From positions 55,236-112,168 of the forward strand of contig JAMYWO010000010.1 in NCBI GenBank assembly GCA_024220525.1: a DNA stretch of 56,933 nucleotides, in the 5' to 3' direction. The DNA is from Cochliopodium minus. Its lineage: Eukaryota > Discosea > Himatismenida > Cochliopodiidae. Under the pieces are notes generated by a model. The model was not told where the DNA came from. It did not search any database and was given only the letters and a program-made list of their open reading frames with translations. The translations under genes and the position numbers were made by a program. Positions 18,949 through 48,454 of the stretch are shown here, one piece after another. Position 1 is the first letter of the stretch; each line of letters begins with the position of its first letter.

Positions 18949-20652
18949 TCAAAACTTTATCAAGACCTTTGAACGAGAATAAAAAACAAAGAATTGGATG
19001 ATTAAATGAAGGATGGGACGAGGGGCAAAAAAAGATTTTTTGGAAATCCGAGCTAAAAACTTGAAAGAAATCAAAATCTGGAAAATACATCTGTTTATGT
19101 ATGGAGAGAAGTACTTGCTGATGGAAGGGCTCCAGAAAAAACCAGATTCGTATGCTAGTATCCACTGTAGCTGATGCGAAACGGAAAAATCTCCCAAATC
19201 AAAATGAGTAAAGGTGATGTTGGACTGGCACAACAAGGTAAGCAGAATGGAGTCTTTGCGTGTTGCCAAGATTTTGTGAGGGGAGATGTTTTGCGTTTTT
19301 ATTGAAAAATCTAAATCAATTAAAAAATTTGGTAAAGTAAAAATTTATTTTTTAATAAAAAAATTATTCAAGAAAAAAAATTAATAAAATAAATAAAAAA
19401 AAAAATAAAAAAAATAAAATAAAAAATTCAACAATATTTTTTTACCTGCTCTGTACTCCAATAGCAACTTTAAACATTTATATTCCAAATTGGGGTTGGC
19501 GATGGCGTAGTCAAGAGGGATGAGTTTGGATCGGCTCATCTCGTTGACGTTCGTTATCTGCCCCAGCAAAGTTTCAAGTAAATCAACACAGTTGACGAGC
19601 ATCTTGTTCTCACAAAAGAAATGTAAAGCATTCTTCCCATATTTATTTACATTGTTAATCTCCGCTTTCAATTCGATCAGTTTTTTGACGATATCTGTGT
19701 CTATTGACTTGTTCATCAAAGCACATAACAAGGGCGTATTATCTTTTTTCCCTTTCTTGTTTATTTCGCTGCCATTTTCTAGATAATGGCCGATTATCTC
19801 TTTGGTGGTGTTAGGATTGAGCAAGGCCAAGTGGAGAGGTGTATCTTTGTCTTTATTGGCCAAATTCACATCGATTTTTGTATCGATGAAAAATCTGATG
19901 AGATCCAAGGAGATCCTCTCATTAATCGATGCGAAATGCAATACCCCATCCCCATGATTGTCCACAATATCAATTTCTGCTTTATTCTCTACCATATATT
20001 CCAATATTTGACAATTTATTTTGGTATTGTTGGATGCCAGCAATAATGGGCTGTATTGAGAATTATTCTTTGAATTAATCTCTGCTTTGTTTTCTATCAA
20101 AAACTTTATGAGATCTATTTCGCAATTTTTTGTTTGGGAACAAACCTCAAGTAGTGGATCCATCCCATCCTTGTTTTTCAAGTTGAGATAAGACTTTTTT
20201 TCCACCATGTATTCCAATATTTCTTTGTTGGTCACCTTGTTTATTAAACAGATATGGAATGGAGTATATTCAAATCCACTAAAACAGATTTTAATGAATT
20301 AGTTCCAGTCAATATAATTTAATATTTTTTTTTTTTACCCTTGTTTGTTTATATCACTGTTATATTGTATTAATAATTTTATCAGTTCAAAATTTTGATT
20401 TAAACATGCATAATGAATAGGCAAATTATCATCCCCATCAACTATATTCAAATCAACTCCATTCTCAATAAAATATTCCACTATAATTTTGATCATATAA
20501 CTTTGTTTAAAATTATTGCTTCTTCTTTTGCATAAATAGTGCATGGGTGTCTTTTCATCAAGATCTTTTTTGTTCAAATCACTTCCATTGAAGATTAATT
20601 CTTTCAATTTCTCAAAATCAAGGTTTAAATCTTTGCATGCATTGTGCAACAT
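18949..20652 (-). CDS. Ankyrin-repeat protein
   Basis: From the ATG at 20652 (in-frame TGA immediately upstream) three exons give about 10 ankyrin repeats. Examples are KTPMHYLCKRRSNN, NLPIHYACLNQNFELIKLL, DGVLHFASINERISLDLI, DTPLHLALLNPNTTKEI and NALHFFCENKMLVNCVDLL. Introns at about 20280-20338 and 19310-19445 are in phase. After the repeats a ~115-residue C-terminal region follows (DSILLTLLCQSNITFTHFDL; HQLQWILAYESGFFW) and ends at TGA 18949. Ankyrin arrays bind partner proteins; no enzymatic domain is visible. It lies 92 bp downstream of the RasGEF stop on the same strand. Confidence 0.85.
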
Positions 20653-20744: not shown

Positions 20745-23700
20745 TTATTTATTTTCTCTTTCAGAAATTCTCGAAGACACAGATTTCTTGTTGCTCTCAA
20801 GTTTGATGAGGATGTTCTTAAAATAAACTTCAATGTTATTAATGGAAGACTTTTGATTCTCCACCACCTCAAGGTTGAGATCTGCAGTTTCAAACAAACG
20901 ATAGCAAATATCCTTGACCCTCTTGAACTCTTTGTAGAGCAAGTTGTATCTTTGATGGAGAGACTCCAACTCTTCAATGTTTTTGAGAGAATTGATTTTT
21001 CTGAAGAGATCTTTGAGACATTTAACCAAAAACTCAAAGGTAGGAGAAATGTAGCTTTGAACCAAAGAAAAAGAAAACTGATTGATCTCAACAGATTCAT
21101 TGTAGATCTTTTGATATAAAGGCTGATAACCTTCGGAAAAGCTGGTGATATGATAAACCACCATGCGCAATTCAGAAGCACGAGAAGCAATAGTTTCTAA
21201 CTCATTTTCGATCTTAAAAAGTTGAGAAGATGATTCTTCTTCATTCAAAATCTCCTCTCCGCTTTCAATAAAGACTTGGTTGATAACTTTGAGTCTGTTT
21301 TGAACTTCACCAAGTTTTCTCATCAATTCTTTTTCTTGAAGCTCCAACAGAAACTGTTCTTCTTTTAGCTTTTGTTTATCGAGTTCACTCAGCTTTTTGG
21401 GTGGATCTTTCTTTTTGAATTTTTTGAGGAGGAATTTCTTTTGATTCTGTGTAGTAATCCATTTTTTCTCTTCTGTTTCAGTGCTTTTTACATAAACTTC
21501 AATCAACTGTTTGAAATAAGAGGGAGGAGGCGGGGGATAAAGAGACTATTTTAAAAATCAATGTTATGATTAAACAAATAAAAGTTTTTTTAAAAAAAAA
21601 CCGTTTACCTGTGAAAATAATACAATGTCTGTCAATACATTCATACTCTTTTCAATGTGGGAAATGTTTTCTCCAAGACAATATTCATCATTAAACTCGA
21701 TTTTCTCAATGATCACATCAGATAAATGAATCAATCTGTCTTGGGGAGAACTCTCAAAAAACTTGATAGGAGTGATCGATGAGATCAACTTGAATCGACT
21801 TTCTTGGTCAATAGATTTTTCCGAAGAATACTTGATGAGCTCCATTAAAGAAGTGATGTGCCATTCTTCTAAATTTTCGGCAAAACACAACTCAAAAAGG
21901 GTTTTTAATAATTTTTCTTCTTCTCTTGTAGATATCCACTTCTCGAGGAGAGATTCAATGGTAAGTTCTAAAGCTGGGCTCCTATTGAAAGCATCTCTAT
22001 AACAGATACAATCTCCATTTTGAAGTTCAAAGATGAGAGTGTTGCTGGAGAGGTTTTCGATCCAATCTGACCAGATCTCGGTTCTGGATCTTTTCTGATA
22101 GACTTGGACTTCTAATCTTCTTTTGAAAGCTTCTGCCGAGGGATGTTTAATGTGGGAAATGGATCCTTTAGAATTCTTGCTAAGAATCTCCAAAGAAGAG
22201 GGATCGGAATGTTTCTTCGTGTGAAGATTCAGATCTACCAGCTTTTCCAGTTCTTCCGTGGAATACCCGCTGACAGTCATGAAATAATTGGAAAGATAAT
22301 TGGCTTTGAAAGGATAAGACAAAGACTGAAATTGTTCGAGCTGGCCAATGATTTTTGCGATTTTGTTTCTCTTCAGAAAGTTGATCATTTTTTCACCTTC
22401 AATAAAATCAGAGCTTCCATCTTCCACAAAAGTTAGATCAGACAAATACAATCCAATGTAAGGAATGGCCACAGTGTTTGTTCTTTTGCATATTTCCATA
22501 AGTTTTCTGTATTTCGAGTAGTTGTTTCTCGTGAGGGATTTGAATGCTGTGGCGACTTGTTGCAATCTTGTTTTGGGCACAATTACTTTTTTTTGGCAGA
22601 ACTTGTAGATGTGCACGCTCGCCAGAGCAGATTCTATCCATGTCGCCCCAAATAAGTTATTTAACTTTATAAATTCTTCAAGTAATTCTAAGAAAAAGTT
22701 ATATCTATGGTTCTTCTCTTTGCTAGCTGTGATTATAAAAAATGTTTTTAAAAAAAAATAATATTTAAATAATAAATGATATTAATTAAAAAAAAAAAAT
22801 TTTTTTACTTTTGGCCAAGACTACTTGCGTTACAGCCCATTTACTACAATTATTAAAATATTCAATCTTTCAAGAAAAAATGATGAAGATTTTTTTGTAA
22901 ATAAAAAAAAAAAAAAATGGGTACCATGTTCAAAACATTTGGAGCATGATCCTCTCTTAAATGCTTTTTATTCCACTTTTGACCTAAAAGTTCATTGGGC
23001 ATGATGGCCTTCAACAAATACTGTTCACACAAACAAAACTGTTCCGCAATGACTTTGGGAGGTCGAGTAAAGATAAGGTCTATGATCTCTTCACCATTGA
23101 TGCTATAAGTGTTATTAAGATCTGGGAAGGGAGGATAAGGTTTCAACTCTTTGATTAGAAGCAACAAGAGCTTTTCTTTGACAGTTTGCGCTGTTTCGAG
23201 ACTCTCAACAAAAAACTTTGCCTCTTTAAAAAGTTGTTCTTTTTCGAATGGATCGTACCCAAAGACTCTCCTTTTGAACCAAACAATAAGAGCTCTGATG
23301 ATTTGTAAGTTTATGAACTCTATTGAGAATTTGTCGTTTTTATGGCTTTCAGAGGCAAACTTTTTCATCAACTCTATGATTTTCAAGTCTTCAACAAAAG
23401 TACAACTAGTAGTGAAAAAACTGTGCCTGTATTCTTCAGAACATTCAGGATTTAACAAATATTCAATGAGACCTTCAATAGTACCACTTGAAACAACTTT
23501 TAGTAGGATAAAAAGATTTAATAAAATGTTTAAGATTAATAAAATGTTTTTACCAGGTGGATCAAACGAAGAGAAGCGGATAATTTCTTGATTCATTAAA
23601 CCCAACTTGGCAACAATTTTTCCGCTGGAACAAGAAATGTTTTTGAGAGGGATTTGTTCGATTTGGGGGATTGGCTCAGGAGCTAAAAGCTCAACACTAA

Positions 23701-25890
23701 GATCTTCACCAGAAAAAAAAGATCCCCAAGCAAACAACTTTCCGTTTCTGACGGCCAGCGCGTAAGTGTTTGCACAAGAAACACCAAAGTTGGTTGCAAC
23801 GAGAGGGCTGTGAGACAATCTCAATGAATTCAAGCTCAAATCTTCTTCCCTTTGTTCATTGAAATTGCTGAGAAAGTTTACATCAGAATATGGAATAGAA
23901 TTGTTTTTTTTCCAGTTGGAAACATCAGAATTCAGACTCAAAGTTGACTGTTTCCTGGGTGTCAAAGTTTTGGCCTTTTCATCTTCTTTTTCGTTGGGAT
24001 CTTTAAAATCCAGCTTTACAAAAGTGTCGCTGTACTGTTCTTTATTTCCTGTACCCAATATTCCATACCTCCCATTTCCAAGCACAAACATGTCTTCTTC
24101 GTAATTGATGCACAAAACAAAATCTTTCCCCAGAGACATCTTTTTGATATCCTGATTAGGTAAATCGAGTTTAACAGGTTTTTCAAAAGCATCCTTACCT
24201 CCCTTTAAAGCGACCCAAGTTTGTCCTTCAAATGAACAAAAAAAATGTCAAAAAAAACTCAAAAAAAATTTAAAAATTTTAGTTTTACCCCAATAATATA
24301 TCATTCCATTTGTTAAAACTGCAGAATTATAAGAATTGGTTGAAATGCAAGTAATGGGATTTTTGTATTGAACGTGAATAGGATTTTCCTCTGTCCTGGT
24401 TCCCTTCAGCTCAAAAGAAGAACTCAAACAATAGTAATAGTTCAAACCCCAACACATAATGGAAAGTCTGTCGTCAAGAAGAGCCAAAACATGAGATTCT
24501 CCAAGACTAACGTAGCAAAAAGATTTGTCAATATTTACAAGAGTAGGTTTCACTACAAATTGTTTCGTCCCACTATACAAATCTCCCCACAGAAAAAGTT
24601 GTCCATTTTCATTAATGATTGCAGACTGATTGGCAAATGCAGCTACACACTTTAAAACCCTTGTGTTCTTAAAAACTTCTGTATCTATCTTTTGAGGAGA
24701 TTTTATGTTAAGCGTGGATCCAATACCCAGTTGTCCACTCGAACCTTCTCCGCAAGACCACAACTCCTTGAGATCAGTGTAAAATAAATAATGTTTTCTA
24801 CCACACGCAATCATCTTCACGTTTTGTAAAACTACAAAATGGAGGGGAATGTCAAACTTGTAGATACTGAAAAGATATCTGTTGGAAATTTCCGAAATGC
24901 TTTTTTCTTTGACTACTGACGACTTATTCACCCGAAATTTGGAAGATATCGTAGATGGAGGTGGGAAATGGCCCTCCACTTTCTTCACCTTTTTTATCAG
25001 CTGTGATTTTGTGTATGTCCTGGAAATGCTTTTCAAAGGTGATATTGTGAGAGTGCTCCTACGTTTATCTGATGAAGATTTTTCTTTTTCTTTCAGAGGG
25101 TAAAAATCTATTTGGATGTCTTGAACTTTTTCATAAATCATTTTTCTCCATATTATCTTTAGTTCCGTTGTCCATTCTACTCTCATCTCTTTTGTGAACC
25201 CTTTTAGCATATAAACCTTTTTTAACTTTTTTATTTCAATGTTGAATTGTGTGTCGTTCCCCTTTTCTCTTGTCACTACAAAGCCCTCTACCAACATAAT
25301 GACTCCTTTAGGCTCTACTTTGTCATCTTTTGTTCTGTCATCATAATATTTAAGTTCTCTTGGGTACAATTTGAACCTTTAATTTTTTTGCAATTATTTA
25401 TTAATTTTGAAATGATTTGTTTTTTTGCTGAATTGAAATTATAAAAATTTTATATATATACTTTATGCATGCTCATATATTTTTACCATTTTGTTTTCCA
25501 TATATTCTTCTTTGGATTTATCTTCATTAACCATCCACATTTAATTTCTGTCTCATGATATGATTTTGATTTTTCTTCAAATTTTCTTTCTGAAAGTGGT
25601 GAAGCTATTATCTCGTTATTGAAGTCTATATTCTTGTTTGATTCAGGATTCGTAATTCTTGGTAAATAATCTTTATTGGTTAGAATGAGACTTGATTTCT
25701 TTCCCAGTATCAAGCTTTCTTTTCTGGGTGATTTGGGAGTTAATTTCTCAATAAATTTATTTGCCAGATTGAGTTTTGGAGAGATTTGGAGATGATTATT
25801 CTCCATTGGATTAGATGGAGAGTATAATTCTTCTATTTTAATGGGATTGATTAATATCTTGATCTTTTCATCTTTATCATCTGAAATCAT
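20745..25890 (-). CDS. PH-RCC1-RasGEF multidomain exchange factor with C-terminal coiled coil
   Basis: Predicted at about 1,600-1,650 residues from the ATG at 25890. A Ser/Pro-rich leader is followed by a PH domain (CGWLMKINPKKNIWKTKW, then KLYPRELKYYDD, ending at the conserved W of VEWTTELKIIW). Then come RCC1-type repeats (LWSCGEGSSGQLGIGS; LFLWGDLYSG; MFVLGNGRYGILGTGN; LFAWGSFFSG). A RasGEF-N module follows (GTIEGLIEYLLNP ... FINLQIIRALIVWFKRRV), then a CDC25-type RasGEF catalytic domain (CEQYLLKAIMPNELLGQKW; KCNGATW-like FGATWIESALASV; NTVAIPYIGLYLSDLTFVED). After a ~300-residue linker a long coiled coil ends at ERENK*. RasGEFs load GTP on Ras; PH and RCC1 parts probably place or regulate it. 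Introns are short and in phase. It is head to head with the PH-SMP gene, 175 bp away. Confidence 0.88.
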
Positions 25891-28841: not shown

Positions 28842-31800
28842 ATGGGGCAGAAACAATCATTGATTCTAAAGGATGTAAATAACAATCCATTAATATGTAA
28901 ACACATTTCTTTTTTTTTTTATTTTATTTGTCTATAAAATAATTAATCTCCCAATTCCCCTTTGCCAAATTAAAAATTTTTTTTCCCTCCTAATAAAAAA
29001 TTTTTGCAGTTACCTTGGAAGAAGAATTGTTTCTATTTTATCAATTCAAACAATTCGCAAATAGAGACAAAATGCTAGATTTTGAGCGATTCTATGATTT
29101 ATTGGCAGAAGATGAGACGAATGAATTTTTGACCCGAAAGATATTCGATATGCTCGATAAAAATAAGGATGGATTGCTTGAATTCGAAGATTATAAGAGA
29201 TTATGTGAAATAATACTAAGGGGATGCGTCGAAGTCAAATTAGAACGTAAAATTAAAATATAAAGAATCAATAATTATCAACGAAACTTCTTCATTAAGG
29301 AATTATAAATATTAAAAAAATATATTTTAAATTATATTTTCACAATTATAATCATTTTTTTTTAAATACCGATTTCCCATTGGTACAGTTCTATTCAATT
29401 TGTTAAAAGCAAATGAGAGTGATGAGATAATAGAAGCAGATAATGCAAGATTGATTTTGAATAAAATTATATTTGATCTCAAATCATCTGAAATGGAAAG
29501 ATTGAGCGAAGAAGACAGAAGAATAAGTGAGAATCACATTAATAAATTTCTGGAAAGGATTTTCATAGAGACAAATACCTTGAAGGTAGAAGATTTTGTG
29601 ATGCATGGATTGAATTGCAGAGAAGGATATAGAATAATGAATTTGCTCGATTCCTTCTTTATAATAATCACGAATTACATGGACAGCAAGCTGAAAACAC
29701 AATTATATAAATTGCCCTATAATCTTATCGTGGCGGCTGAGGGAAATTATGTTCCAAAGGCTATTTATTGTCTCACTCAACAAATGAAAGAGATCATAAT
29801 CAAAAAGAAAGAGAATACAGAGATGCTTGAAAGGGAGATATATTCACTCACCAAGAAGAAAGATATCAAGATATGTGATGCCTTGGTGAGCTCTTTCCAT
29901 TTGGGATTTGCGTGTGAAACCGATCTAACGGGCATCTCGCTCTCCATCCTCATTTTCACCCTCAAAAATCTTTTGGCACACATTCCCGCTCCATTATTAA
30001 CTTTCACCCTCTCAAGAAAGTTGATGCAGAGTAATATCAAGAAGAAAACGGACTTAGGAAATTCGATAGCTTTCATTCTAAAGTCCATCCCTATATCATA
30101 TCGAAATACTATCATCTGCATCATCGAAACCTTCAATTTGATCTGCAAAGATTCCAACATGTTGATCAAGCAGTTTTCATTTTTGTTCGCCTGTTGTTTC
30201 GTCAAGATCTATCACGAGTTGGAATTCAATAAGGCCTCTTGTATCGTAGAGTATCTCATTTTGAATGGACTCGATATCATTTCAACGATGAATATATCCG
30301 AAGAAAATACCTCCATCACCGAAGATGATCCTCTCTTATGCAACCAAAACAACGAAAACAGTGATAGTCTTAAAATAAGAAAGTTCAACATCTCTGAACC
30401 TTTGTTGTCCAAAGGGGGTATCAACCTGGGAAAGCTCTTTCTTACCACATCCAAAAGAAGATCTTACAAAGAAAGGATGAGCAATTCCCTTGATCTCAAC
30501 AAAGCCCTCGATGAGGCAGACAACAATTTGGAGAAACTTTTTCTTGCAAAGCTTAAAAAGAAGCCCAAGCTGGATCTACCCCAAATCACAAAAAGAAATT
30601 CCAAAAACAATGTCAAGAAAGATTTTCGCACCAAGTACAGAAAGTCCCACATTGAAAGTGCAACTGTCCATGAAATTGATGGAGACAACAATCTAGAGAT
30701 ACTCTCCAAAAACAAAAACCGAAGATCTTTGATGTTGGGGAGCCCTGTCAACCTTCAAGAAGGAGAAGATGACGAGAACATTTTGGATGAGGATGATTGT
30801 GAATTTGAAAACGATAGATCCGATCAAAAGACTGACATGGAGAAGCTTTTCCCAACCACTCCCAGAAAGAACAATGTTGATAACCACACCATCCCAAAAG
30901 TAGATCAAAAAAACCAAATGAACAAACTTTTTCGTACCAAGAACAACAAAGAAAGACCTAGTGTGGATATCGAGGATACCAACCTGGAAATACTTTTCCT
31001 TGCGAAGATGAAGAGAAGCAAAATCGAACACCCTGTTTTGGCCAAGAGAGAACACAACGACAACATGAAAAAACTCTTTCGTACAAAGTATAGAAACTCC
31101 AATGTGGATGGCCCTGTGCCCGACCTAGAGAACAGCAATCTAGAAAAGCTTTTTCTTGCAAAACACAGAAACTCCAATAACACCGACGAATCTCTTTCAC
31201 CAAAGGATGAATCAAGCAGTGATTCCAATTCTCAGATCTCCACCAAGAAGGATCCACCTACCGTAAAGAGACTCTTCCGTACTAAGAATAGAAACTCTCA
31301 CAATGGAAACTCTGTTTCGGATGTCGAAGACAGAAACTTGGAGAAGCTCTTCCTTGCAAAGTACAAAACAAACTCTCCTAGTGAGAACTCTGGCATTGTT
31401 GGCTTTCCAAAAATATCTCCAAAGCTCGAAAAAATTCTTGAAAGCCCAGGTGCTGACATTGAACAAACTGAGGAAGAAAGCAGCAGCACCAAAACTGAGG
31501 AGAGTGTCAAAGAAGAAAAGATTGAATTAAATAAAGTGCAAGTACCATTAATGACCATCAATAACGGAGATCTACTTACTATGAGCCCTGTTATCCTGCA
31601 AAGACCAAAGTTTACTAATTGGAAGAAAATAAAGTCTAATGATGTGAGTTTCAACTCTGATTTCGACTTGGAAGAAAACTTGGAAAAGTTTGTCCACACC
31701 AAAAACTTAATAATGAACAGTGATCCTCTCTTGAAAAAAGATAACCAATACAATGAAATCGATTCCTTGAAGCCCATCAAGAGGGATTCCAAGAGTGAGA

Positions 31801-32510
31801 ACTTGAAGAAAATATTTCGTACCAAGAACCGAAAATCTAACATTGAGACCACTTCCAACTCTAAGCTGGATCTGGGGGACCACTTGGAAAAACTCTTTCA
31901 AATGAGACACAAAAACGTTTGTAGTAGTGATCCCTTGGCTTCTAAAGACAATCATAGCACAAGAATTGATGATTATAATGAATTGGATCAACACACTCCT
32001 ATAAGAGAGAGGAAAAACGGCTTGAAAAAAGTTTTTCGCACAAAATACAGGAGATCCACCAACGAAAGTCCCGTCTCAGACTTGGAGGACAAAAACTTGG
32101 AGATTCTCTTTCTTTCAAAGTACAAAGCCAATTCTCCTGGTGAAGACACCAAAGAAAACCTTTCTCCTAAAAAAGATCAAAAGTCTCATTTCAAAAAAAT
32201 ATTTCACACAAAGTATAGGAACTCTGTCGGCGTAACCTGCTTTGCATCTGACTTGGAACTTGAAGATATCTTTCAGAAATTTTCTAAAAACAAGTCAAAA
32301 CTCAATAACTCTGATCCTATCATATGCAAAGAAAACCACAATTCAAATGGCTTTACTAAAGAGGATCGCACCATCCCTAAGGGCGAACAGTCTGTTGAGA
32401 ACATCTCTTTGGAGAAAAGAATCATCGATGTTCTCGACTATCCTTTCAATGTTACCACCAAATTTACAAACGTCAACGAAAGGAAAAGCTTCTACCAAAG
32501 GAATGATTAA
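28842..32510 (+). CDS. EF-hand/RhoGAP-like protein with a novel alternating repeat array
   Basis: Three exons (28842-28896, 29010-29246, 29389-32510) give about 1,138 residues. The N-terminus MGQKQS fits the N-myristoylation rule (Gly2, Ser6). Residues ~20-90 resemble calcineurin-B-like EF hands; the clear loop is DKNKDGLLEFED (Asp, not Glu, at position 12). Residues ~200-390 look RhoGAP-like (LLAHIPAPLLTFTLSRKLM), but no GxFRxsG arginine-finger motif is seen, so GAP activity is doubtful. From residue ~430 to the end about 18 short units alternate between type A (NLEKLFLAKxK) and type B (KKLFRTKYRNS), spaced 25-60 residues apart in Ser/Asp-rich linkers. I know no family with this array. A calcium-responsive, membrane-tethered signalling scaffold is a reasonable inference. 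Confidence 0.75.
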
Positions 32511-32688
32511 GAAAAAAATTGTATAGAGAACTTTTGAACGGGAATTATTTATTAAAATTTTGTTTTGTAATTTCATTTTTTTCACTTGGTTATAACTATC
32601 AACATTCGAATTATCTTGATATTGTTTGAAGAATTGACCCCTTTTTATTTTGAGAGTAAAAAATTCAAAAAAAAAAAAAATTTGGAAA

Positions 32689-33459
32689 ATGAATAATACC
32701 AATAATTCAGTATGGCAAAAAGGAGAAAAGAAGAAATATCTGGATGAAGAATTCCAAGACGAAATTCTTGAAATAATTCCAAATTTATTTCTAAGTGGCC
32801 ATAAATCAGCCTATTCATTAGAAACACTCAAAGATAAAAAAATCCATTCAATATTGGTTGTGGCTAAAGAGTGTAATATGACATTTGCCAATAATTTTAA
32901 ATATCTCAAGTTGGATGTAGAAGATTGGGAGTATGAAAACATATCTCAACATTTTGAAAAAGCATTTGAATTTTTGTGTATGAAAGAATTTTTATAATTT
33001 AAAAAATTTATATTTATAATTTAATTTCAACACTGATTTTCATCTTATTTCAACAGCCCCAAGTAAAAAAAATTTTTTTTTTTTGATCTAAAAATTAACC
33101 TATTGAATTCAATAATTTTTTATTAAAGATGTAAAGTGGAATAGACCATGTCTTGTTCATTGTTGGGGTAAAAATATTCACAATAAAATCTTTAAATTCA
33201 TAATACTATTCTTCTCAAAACTAATTATGATAATCATAATTTTATAGAAGGAGAATCTAGAAGCCCCACAATAATTATTGCTTTCTTGATGAAGTTTAAA
33301 GATATGCCACTCAAAGAAGCATTTGAATTTGTAATAAAAATAAAACCAGAAATAGAACCCAATGAAGGTTTTGCCAAACAACTAATTACTTACGAGAAAG
33401 AGCTCTTTGGAAAAAACTCGATGGAAATTACTGATTTTGAATTCAATGAAGATGACTAA
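32689..33459 (+). CDS. Dual-specificity protein phosphatase
   Basis: Three exons give about 180 residues from the ATG at 32689: EILEIIPNLFLSGHKSAYS (DUSP start), KKIHSILVVAKE, YLKLDVEDWEYENISQHFEK (general-acid Asp region), then PCLVHCW. An in-phase intron (about 33167-33247) splits the P-loop. After splicing it reads HCWEGESRSP, a full HCx5R(S) signature with the nucleophile Cys and the phosphate-binding Arg. KFKDMPLKEAFEFVIKIKP follows as in DUSPs. It removes phosphate from Tyr/Ser/Thr, or possibly other phosphate esters. Cytosolic; no targeting signal is seen. The acidic C-terminal tail is FEFNEDD. Confidence 0.88.
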
Positions 33460-33934
33460 TCAAGTCTTTTCGAAGATGGAATGATCTTTTTTTTTACAGA
33501 AAAATTTTTTGATCTTTTTTTCAATTCAAACTATATAAAAATCAAATTAAAAAATTTTGAATTCTTTCTATATTCCTTATCATTTATCGGATTTGGATAG
33601 ATCAAATTTGAAAGTATATTATACTTTATAAATGATTTTTATAATACAGTTTTGGTGGGAAAGTGGGATTGATTTCTGGAGTATTTTTGTTGCTTAAAAT
33701 AAGTCTTGATTTTTGGATCAATTCTTATATCCAGACAGATATATAAATCCCATCGATTTTATATTGCTAATAGGAAATCTCAATTTGATTAATTGAAAAT
33801 ACAAATGCTTTTGGGATACTTCTTAAAGCTTTTCAAATTGTTTCTTTTTATCTTTTGATAGATTTGCTATTTGATGAATATGCAATATAAGAAATTGAAA
33901 TATATTTATAAAATAAAATTTGAATTTTAAAAAG
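33460..33934. other. Intergenic, A/T-rich
   Basis: Nothing recognised between the phosphatase and enoyl-CoA hydratase genes except A/T runs and an A-rich leader before the next ATG. Confidence 0.55.
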
Positions 33935-46888: not shown

Positions 46889-48454
46889 ATGTATTTGACA
46901 AATGGAAGTGTTGTGACCCTCCTATCTCATCATATGAATTATCTCAGCTCAAATAAATTGATGACTGTTTATCTCGATAAATCTTTGGAAAATGCTCAGA
47001 AATGGTCAATAGAAATCCATGGTAATTTTAGAAAATAAGGAATTAGAGGAATGATCGATAAATATGACTTTTATATGAAATTATTTTTTTTTGAAAAACA
47101 AAATTTGATTATTATTTTGAATAGGAAATAAAATAGCATTCAAATCATGCCATGGGACCTATCTCAAAGCAAATATAAAATATAATTTGATAAGCTTGTC
47201 AGATAAGCTCGATATAGGGACATTATGGACAATGGAGCAACAAAGAGACGGGAAGATGGCAATAATATCATGCCATAACACATATTTGAGAGCAGGATTG
47301 ACAGGAGCAAATCATGTTGGCTATTGCAGAAAATGGGTAAGAAACTTCAATTGAATTATACAACCATTTAATATAATAAACATTTGCAACATTGAAGGAA
47401 AAATGGACTATGAATGTTGCTAAGAATGTTCAACATGAACAACAATTATATTATGCACAAATATTGCATCAACAACAACAGTTGCAACAGCAATATCAAG
47501 TGCAACAACATCAACATTATCAGCTGCAACAACAACATCAAACACTATATAATTATTCGCTCCTCTTGCAAGCACAGCTTCAACAGCAGCAACATACACA
47601 ACAAAGGAGTCAACAGACACAACAAATAAATCAACAGCTCTCCAATCTCAATACCATCAAGAACCCCAATATGGTTCCATCACATCAATACCAACCTCAT
47701 GATAGGGAGAATCTCAATCATCCCAATCCTAATCAACAGATGCCCTTCAATCAATTGATCCCCCAGATGCCCCTCTCCACATCCCAACCCCTCTTGATCC
47801 CACAACTCCCAATATCGCCTCAGATGCCCTTATCAAATCCAATTTCATCCCTATCGCTCTCCACATCCCAACCTCTCTTGATCCCACAACTCCCAATATC
47901 GCCTCAGATGCCCTTATCTAATCCATTGTCCATGCCATCCTCCCTATCCACATCCTCTCCCTCCCTTTTCATCGATCCCACCGTCTCTTTTTCCAACCCC
48001 ATCCAAACTCAGCTCCAACACTTGCAGATCCAGCAGCTCCAACAACATCTCCAACAGCAGAGACAGCAACAACAGCAACTCTTGCAACACCAGCAGCTCC
48101 AACAACAAGTTCAGCAGCTTCAACTCCAAAATAGGCAACTCCAACAACAAGCTCAAATTCAACAAGTCCAACATGTAAAGTTTTTTTTCTTTTTTTTTTT
48201 TTTAATTTAAAGGTTTTTTCTTGTTTTTTTTATAATTTAAAAGTTTTTGGTCACATTTTTTAATTTTTATTTTTTTATTTTTTCTTATTTTAAATTTTTA
48301 TTATTAATCATTATTATCTTGTTACTTTTAGATCAAAAATCCTAATATGATCCAACCTCCTCAAGATCCATCTACTCTCCCCCTTCCTCGCCCGTTGCAA
48401 CCCCAACAATTACTATTCCCTCCTTACCCTCTTTCTAATAATGGTAATAAGTGA
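46889..48454 (+). CDS. Fascin-like beta-trefoil protein with long Gln-rich tail
   Basis: Exons 46889-47021 and about 47126-47336 encode VVTLLSHHMNYLSSNKLM, GNKIAFKSCHGTYLKAN, LWTMEQQRDGKMAIISCHNT and YLRAG. These are two fascin-type beta-trefoil strands ('vAlks.hG.YLsA'). Exon 3 (47396-48174) is a Gln-rich region of CAA repeats. Within it is a tandem duplication (about 47771-47850 and 47855-47928) of a Pro/Leu segment QPLLIPQLPISPQMPLSN. A last exon ends PPYPLSNNGNK*. Fascin-fold modules bundle actin or bind other ligands. Poly-Q tails of this sort are frequent in AT-rich amoebae and may drive assembly. The low-complexity part is coding, as the frame holds across it. Confidence 0.7.

Follow-up and report, generated by a model that had tools for sequence, protein, structure and literature searches.

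The window, i.e., the whole 56,933-nucleotide stretch of Cochliopodium minus DNA that was analysed (A+T 72.9%), contains a gene whose product ends in a long series of short, similar units. This raises the question of whether the series is a genuine repeat and, if so, what it might do in a protein that had been suggested to carry EF hands and a myristoyl anchor as well.

The array gene and its family

The gene lies on the + strand (28842-32510), encodes 1137 amino acids and consists of three exons, its two introns being both GT-AG and in phase; the array occupies the C-terminal ~725 residues of the protein (Table 1). The three-exon model is supported by a paralogue located on contig C22 (L002), which has the same layout, begins with the same four residues (MGQK) and shares 38% identity with the window protein over their common part. 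The genome was read as eukaryotic on the basis of its introns and gene content. Anaeramoeba was weighed as a source and not adopted, A. ignava having 80.65% A+T (PMC11550330) and the iron-hydrogenase family giving two adjacent matches, probably from a single gene.

Table 1. Features of the array gene, in window coordinates (for units, the position of the unit start).
Feature	Position	Strand	Remarks
Exon 1	28842..28896	+	MGQKQSLILKDVNNNPLI..., Met-Gly start, candidate N-myristoylation signal; GT-AG splice in phase
Exon 2	29010..29246	+	EF-hand region resembling neuronal calcium sensors, with one canonical loop, DKNKDGLLEFED
Exon 3	29389..32510	+	Remainder of the EF-hand module, followed by the RhoGAP-like domain, the motif tail and the stop; single open frame, splice phase consistent
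RhoGAP-like domain	29859..30203	+	About aa 257-369; arginine-finger motif absent; Pfam RhoGAP
Disordered-type tail with 18 A/B units	30333..32330	+	First unit at 30426
A-type units	30528, 30693, 30837, 30984, 31140, 31338, 31680, 31884, 32097, 32259	+	
B-type units	30426 (intermediate), 30612, 30918, 31065, 31263, 31803, 32022, 32190	+	
Best-kept stretch	30885..31385	+	Three consecutive B-A pairs: B 30918, 31065, 31263; A 30984, 31140, 31338
Unit-free spacer	31395..31670	+	About 100 residues; divides the array into two halves
C-terminal half	31680..32306	+	Unit 31680 (A) followed by three B-A pairs

Over residues ~1-185 the protein is similar to neuronal calcium sensors: in a phmmer search of the PDB, KChIP2 was matched at E 2.4e-7 over aa 42-184, the match extending into exon 3, and was followed by other KChIPs, NCS-1, GCAP1 and recoverin. 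The similarity covers the EF-hand module as expected of this group. Neuronal calcium sensors have two or three working EF-hand loops; in the window protein a single canonical loop was recognised by eye, in which D replaces E at position 12, and Pfam EF-hand_1 found one stretch (E 3.9e-4; 20.2 bits, below the cut-off of 25.4). Thus, of the EF hands originally predicted, the module stands, but with one canonical loop instead of several.

The protein starts with Met-Gly (MGQKQS), as does that of C22 (MGQKNT), and further Met-Gly starts are found upstream of the frames at C425 (MGNTNN) and C61 (MGNNNVS). Where C61 has V, the myristoylation consensus calls for a residue that is small or polar, so that the start of C61 breaks it; at C81, no ATGGG codon pair is present within the 5 kb examined. 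Since the C61, C425 and C81 loci are unspliced, their Met-Gly starts are to be regarded as candidates. On these grounds the window protein is probably N-myristoylated, and the suggested myristoyl anchor is plausible, the signal lying in exon 1 and having counterparts at C22, C425 and C61, the last of them off consensus.

Downstream of the EF-hand module lies a domain similar to RhoGAP, to which Pfam gave E 3.8e-5 and 24.0 bits in the spliced protein (cut-off 24.5), 28.5 bits, over the cut-off, in a six-frame search of the genome (G000:C10:85094-85438), and 26.1 bits, again over the cut-off, in L002. A profile made from the window protein and L002 matched RhoGAP structures at E 2e-4 and p85 at 0.0034. 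The arginine-finger motif G-I-[FY]-R-x-[ST]-G is absent from all four aligned family members (window, L002, L003 and L004) and is carried by the canonical references L029 (GIFRVTG) and L031 (GIYRLSG), which were chosen for having it, L028 and L030 having been dropped because a script did not find it there. The missing motif suggests that the domain is probably devoid of GAP action, i.e., that it probably binds a Rho GTPase but does not switch it off. A single-sequence model of this part was useless (mean pLDDT 34.8). The array does belong to a protein with an EF-hand module, as had been proposed, whereas the resemblance to neuronal calcium sensors and the RhoGAP-like domain had both been missed.

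With 150 of the 158 candidates scored, at least 128 matches to RhoGAP were obtained in the genome (E <= 0.001), and one gene may contribute more than one of them, as some are its exons; judging from these matches, its set of Rho regulators is large.

When exon 3 was searched against the genome of the same organism (44.65 Mb, 598 contigs), four other loci emerged, on contigs C22, C61, C425 and C81, giving a family of five loci that share the EF-hand/RhoGAP-like part. Pfam found RhoGAP over the cut-off and an EF-hand below it in the C22 protein; by eye, both C61 and C81 have EF-hand-like exons upstream, and at C425 an upstream frame may belong to an EF-hand module. The C425 paralogue (L035) appears, by eye, to end in an F-box-like stretch, QPWPLILQFVIPFLPFKDLLKCRGVCRIWNNL, after its RhoGAP-like domain. 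A profile of the array scored at best -3.9 in the C22 protein, 4.3 in the C61 frame, -3.4 in one C425 frame and -10.1 in the last C81 frame, compared with 16.9-38.0 on its own 18 training units. On these scores the array is excluded from the paralogue frames that were scanned, which indicates that the family can do without it. Since the two weakest array units, when left out of the profile, score just -0.3 and -0.8, the C61 stretch VNFVKKSNLKKPKKSS may be a single decayed copy of a unit.

Several other genes were noted in the window. The next one downstream (32650-33460, +) resembles dual-specificity phosphatases (for the first exon only, DSPc at E 3.5e-5 and 24.1 bits against a cut-off of 33.5). 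On the minus strand, successive frames at 21573-25378 carry RCC1-like repeats, RasGEF_N (below cut-off) and RasGEF, and probably encode an RCC1-RasGEF protein, and an ankyrin-repeat protein is found at 19384-20298 (Ank_2 E 1e-38). A very Gln-rich open frame lies at 47380-48210 (+).

Two apparent versions of one element in the tail

Eighteen unit starts were placed in the tail, ten of type A and eight of type B, in agreement within 6 nt with all 18 centres listed in the original prediction. The A consensus is D-[LVI]-E-D-x-N-L-E-[KI]-L-F-L-A-K-x-[KR], with the core [NH]-L-E-[KI]-L-F-L-A-K frequently led by D-[LVI]-[ED]-[DN]; that of B is [LMVF]-K-K-[LIV]-F-R-T-K-[YN]-R-[NKR]-S. What they have in common, [LMV]-[EK]-[KI]-[LI]-F-x-x-K, makes A and B look like diverged copies, or two versions, of one element of ~12 residues.

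The array is real as a protein repeat. In the 707-aa tail the core [MLVF][EKNGR][KRI][LIV]F..K occurs 11 times, compared with a mean of 0.014 and a maximum of 1 in 5000 shuffles, and the looser [LIV][FV]..K also occurs 11 times (shuffles: mean 1.41, maximum 7), both patterns having been devised after the units were seen. With a 16-column profile in a leave-one-out scheme, 16 of the 18 units were equalled by just 0-7 of 200 shuffled tails; the exceptions are 31680 and 32259 (120 and 128 shuffled tails, respectively), which were placed by position and by eye. A tandem repeat at the DNA level was considered and rejected, the tail having just a 20-base run of a 9-mer (30341-30360).

Spacing is from 22 to 34 residues from B to A (25 in three cases out of eight) and from 27 to 46 from A to B (seven cases), and A is twice followed by A, after 48 and 114 residues. 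This pattern points to B-A as the natural module, present eight times in two halves round the spacer, and its variation is as for motifs on a flexible chain. The alternation formerly proposed therefore holds for the two flavours and the eight B-A pairs, but is broken by the A-A successions 30693/30837 and 31338/31680 and blurred by unit 30426 (LGKLFLTT), which is intermediate. Similarly, the Ser said to end type B is located at F+7, always as R-x-S, in six of the eight B units, the remaining pair having theirs at F+8 and F+10; all eight have a Thr at F+2.

A second, smaller repeat was seen by eye in the linkers (DDPLL, SEPLL, SDPLL, SDPLA and SDPII, at 30318-30410, 31715-31735, 31920-31945 and 32305-32330), where DDPLL precedes the first unit and SDPLL, SDPLA and SDPII follow the A units 31680, 31884 and 32259. 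The tail has five [DE]P[LI] in all.

Comparison of the units with one another revealed unequal divergence of cores and linkers. Over nine codons the cores gave pN/pS 0.28 (seven of the eight B units) and 0.30 (nine of the ten A units), 30426 and 30837 being left out, and these values are biased downward because the units were chosen by protein similarity; the nine codons before and after gave 0.75 and 0.72 for B, and 0.85 and 0.93 for A. Over the five codons around F, pN/pS was 0.16 in B and 0.46 in A. A safer point than the core pN/pS is that silent differences are near saturation (pS 0.73 in B cores and 0.91 in A cores), which suggests that the copies are old and that their cores have not drifted in the way of the linkers.

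By the charge-hydropathy measure, four pieces of the tail fall on the disordered side (-0.16, -0.05, -0.18, -0.06) and the N-terminal modules on the ordered one (0.06, 0.12, 0.31), which agrees with a tail of disordered type that carries the motif array in its two flavours. A model of the B-A pair built from seven stretches places residues 36-50, which cover the A motif, in a helix (pLDDT 82 for 41-50) and has just three helical residues over B, and its mean pLDDT of 66 and pTM of 0.25 make it a hint. The helical moment ranges from 0.46 to 0.77 in B units and from 0.08 to 0.70 in A units; amphipathicity stands out from self-shuffles at 0.05 in two of the eight B and two of the ten A units.

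Searches for relatives and known motifs

The whole protein, the tail and the EF-hand/RhoGAP pair alignment were each compared with 5.8 billion protein sequences, and among the candidates scored (7991, 7989 and 7994, respectively) none reached E <= 1 for the protein, E <= 10 for the tail or E <= 1 for the pair. That search needed shared words of five residues and scored just the candidates sharing most words; on account of this limit, and since the window's own protein is absent from the results, relatives may be missing from them. When viral and prokaryote contigs were scanned for the tail, 6 and 53 pattern matches were obtained, respectively, with no relative among them.

A search of the own genome with the tail found this gene alone, and one with a 57-aa B-A stretch found seven places, all of them in the array gene, the six other B-A copies being recovered at E 1.6e-9 to 3.3e-4 in five cases and at 0.0985 in one. 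As a DNA pattern that does not cover Leu as TTR, K-[LIM]-F-[RS]-T-K has 15 matches in the genome (three in the array gene) and 9 in the reversed control. The alignment of units gave a single match in the PDB (E 0.33). In Pfam, the best family for the tail was TC1 (PF15063), at 13.7 bits for the whole tail and 15.3 for its first half, its scores of 12.3-15.3 bits (E 0.17-0.021) lying below the cut-off of 27; the second half gave MTRES1_C alone (E 0.67). None of the searches that were run, whether of protein sequences, Pfam, the PDB or the own genome, thus matched a described family, as had been anticipated.

Known short motifs were sought by regular expressions, and matches were counted when starting within -6..+8 of a unit start. 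For the LD motif, the expression (L,V)(D,E)X(L,M)(L,M)XXL (PMC7703752) fits 0/18 units in the strict form and 1/18 in a relaxed hydrophobic version; the F-actin motif SFM, VxxLxxxFE (PMC13364712), fits 0/18, and 1/18 if relaxed to [VIL]..[LIVM]...[FWY]. RVxF, the clathrin box, PxIxIT, LxVP and the 14-3-3 expression R..S.P have no match in the tail. A nuclear export signal expression (NES) matches one of ten A units, LIR one of eight B units and CaM 1-5-10 two of ten A units, which assigns the units to none of these motifs. WH2 has one match in the tail, starting outside the counted range and, by eye, ending in the LKKV of B unit 32022. A reading of the B-A pair as an EF-hand-like helix-loop-helix was dropped by eye, its loop being without acidic ligands. 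Focal_AT and vinculin have no match in the genome, nor in the control genomes, so that this result carries little weight. In open-licence papers LEKLFLAK was not found, nor, judged from their listings, was the combination of a calcium sensor, a finger-less RhoGAP-like domain and a two-flavour array.

Possible roles of the array

The reading that we favour, tentatively and with a probability of about 45%, is that of a multivalent docking scaffold. N-myristoylation would anchor the protein at the membrane; an EF-hand module of the neuronal-calcium-sensor type would be followed by a RhoGAP-like domain binding a Rho GTPase without switching it off; and a disordered tail, with its eight B-A pairs plus two additional A units, would bring numerous molecules of a single partner, or of two related partners, together at the membrane. 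As docking elements, A would combine a helix tendency with an acidic lead, and B would be basic, with an F+7 Ser whose phosphorylation might switch it. Docking is favoured by the repeat statistics, the B-A copies that the own-genome search found in this gene, the kept cores, the A helix, the disordered-type tail, the varying spacing and the existence of a five-locus family. It is weakened by the paralogue frames without array, by the mostly non-amphipathic A units and their greater variability around F, by the failure of every known docking pattern tried, and by the lowering of the core pN/pS through the choice of units.

An unlikely alternative is an electrostatic array of the MARCKS kind, in which the N-myristoyl group and the basic-hydrophobic B units would hold the protein on acidic lipids until phosphorylation of the B serines released it. 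The Met-Gly start, the charge of the B 11-mers (from +3 to +5; +2 in 30426) and the prevalence of Ser at F+7 are in line with it. However, the A 11-mers have a charge of just -1 to +2 and are mostly preceded by acidic residues, positive and negative side chains almost balance over the 737-aa tail (134 K+R, 121 D+E), just two of the eight B units are conspicuously amphipathic at 0.05, and the alternation with A is left unexplained.

It is rather improbable that the tail is a weakly constrained, repeat-expanded disordered region having no specific binding role. Such a tail would fit an array confined to one gene of one genome, the lack of homologues in the searches run, and a K-[LIM]-F-[RS]-T-K pattern that is not clearly enriched elsewhere; kept cores alongside diverged linkers, with silent sites near saturation, speak against it, bearing in mind that the core pN/pS is biased by the choice of units.

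Quite improbable, in turn, is an intramolecular switch, in which the groove of the calcium-sensor-like module would bind a unit of either type in cis, with calcium altering which of the units are free. A module of this type does lie in the same chain, neuronal calcium sensors bind hydrophobic helices, and a helix was modelled for A. Yet there is one canonical loop, with D rather than E at position 12, the array was not found in the scanned frames of paralogues having the EF-hand module, and 18 ligands are excessive for one groove. Finally, it is very improbable that the protein is an LD-motif or filament-binding cytoskeletal scaffold with A as a degenerate LD helix (LExLF), because, even though A begins with L-[DE]-x-[LI]-F, like LDXLLXXL, and the tail is of the disordered type described for LD motifs (PMC7703752), the LD and SFM patterns fit at most one unit and, in the units, Lys mostly takes the place of the final hydrophobic anchor of LD.

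A bolder reading, and a long shot, would take A and B for a novel pair of short linear motifs that have a receptor of their own. The protein would then be a Rho-effector scaffold, anchored at the membrane and gated by calcium, in which the eight B-A pairs would cluster that receptor and the B serines would act as an off-switch. Should a receptor for the motifs exist, the array would offer a convenient multivalent ligand of natural origin, and it would show a signalling scaffold growing through motif copies added to one member of a gene family.

Compared with known systems, the protein is an orphan variant of a familiar kind, its array having been seen in one gene of one genome. It shares with the neuronal calcium sensors (KChIP, NCS-1, recoverin, GCAP), which are myristoylated, the similarity best seen with KChIP2 and the Met-Gly start, and differs from them in its single canonical loop and in the RhoGAP-like domain and long tail to which the module is joined. 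The p85 subunit of PI3K and OCRL have RhoGAP-like domains that are not known to have GAP activity, and the window protein is like them in its RhoGAP similarity without the arginine-finger motif, as well as in the profile match to p85; it is, however, remote in sequence, and no SH2 or phosphatase domain was found in it. As in LD-motif proteins (the paxillin family and DLC1, the latter also a RhoGAP), several short leucine-rich, acidic-flanked helices would lie in a disordered region, but the last anchor is mostly K in the window units and the basic B unit is without counterpart there. The possible N-myristoyl anchor and the basic segments with serines recall MARCKS, which has one long basic effector domain, whereas the tail of the window protein has many short basic units alternating with an acidic-led version of the same element.
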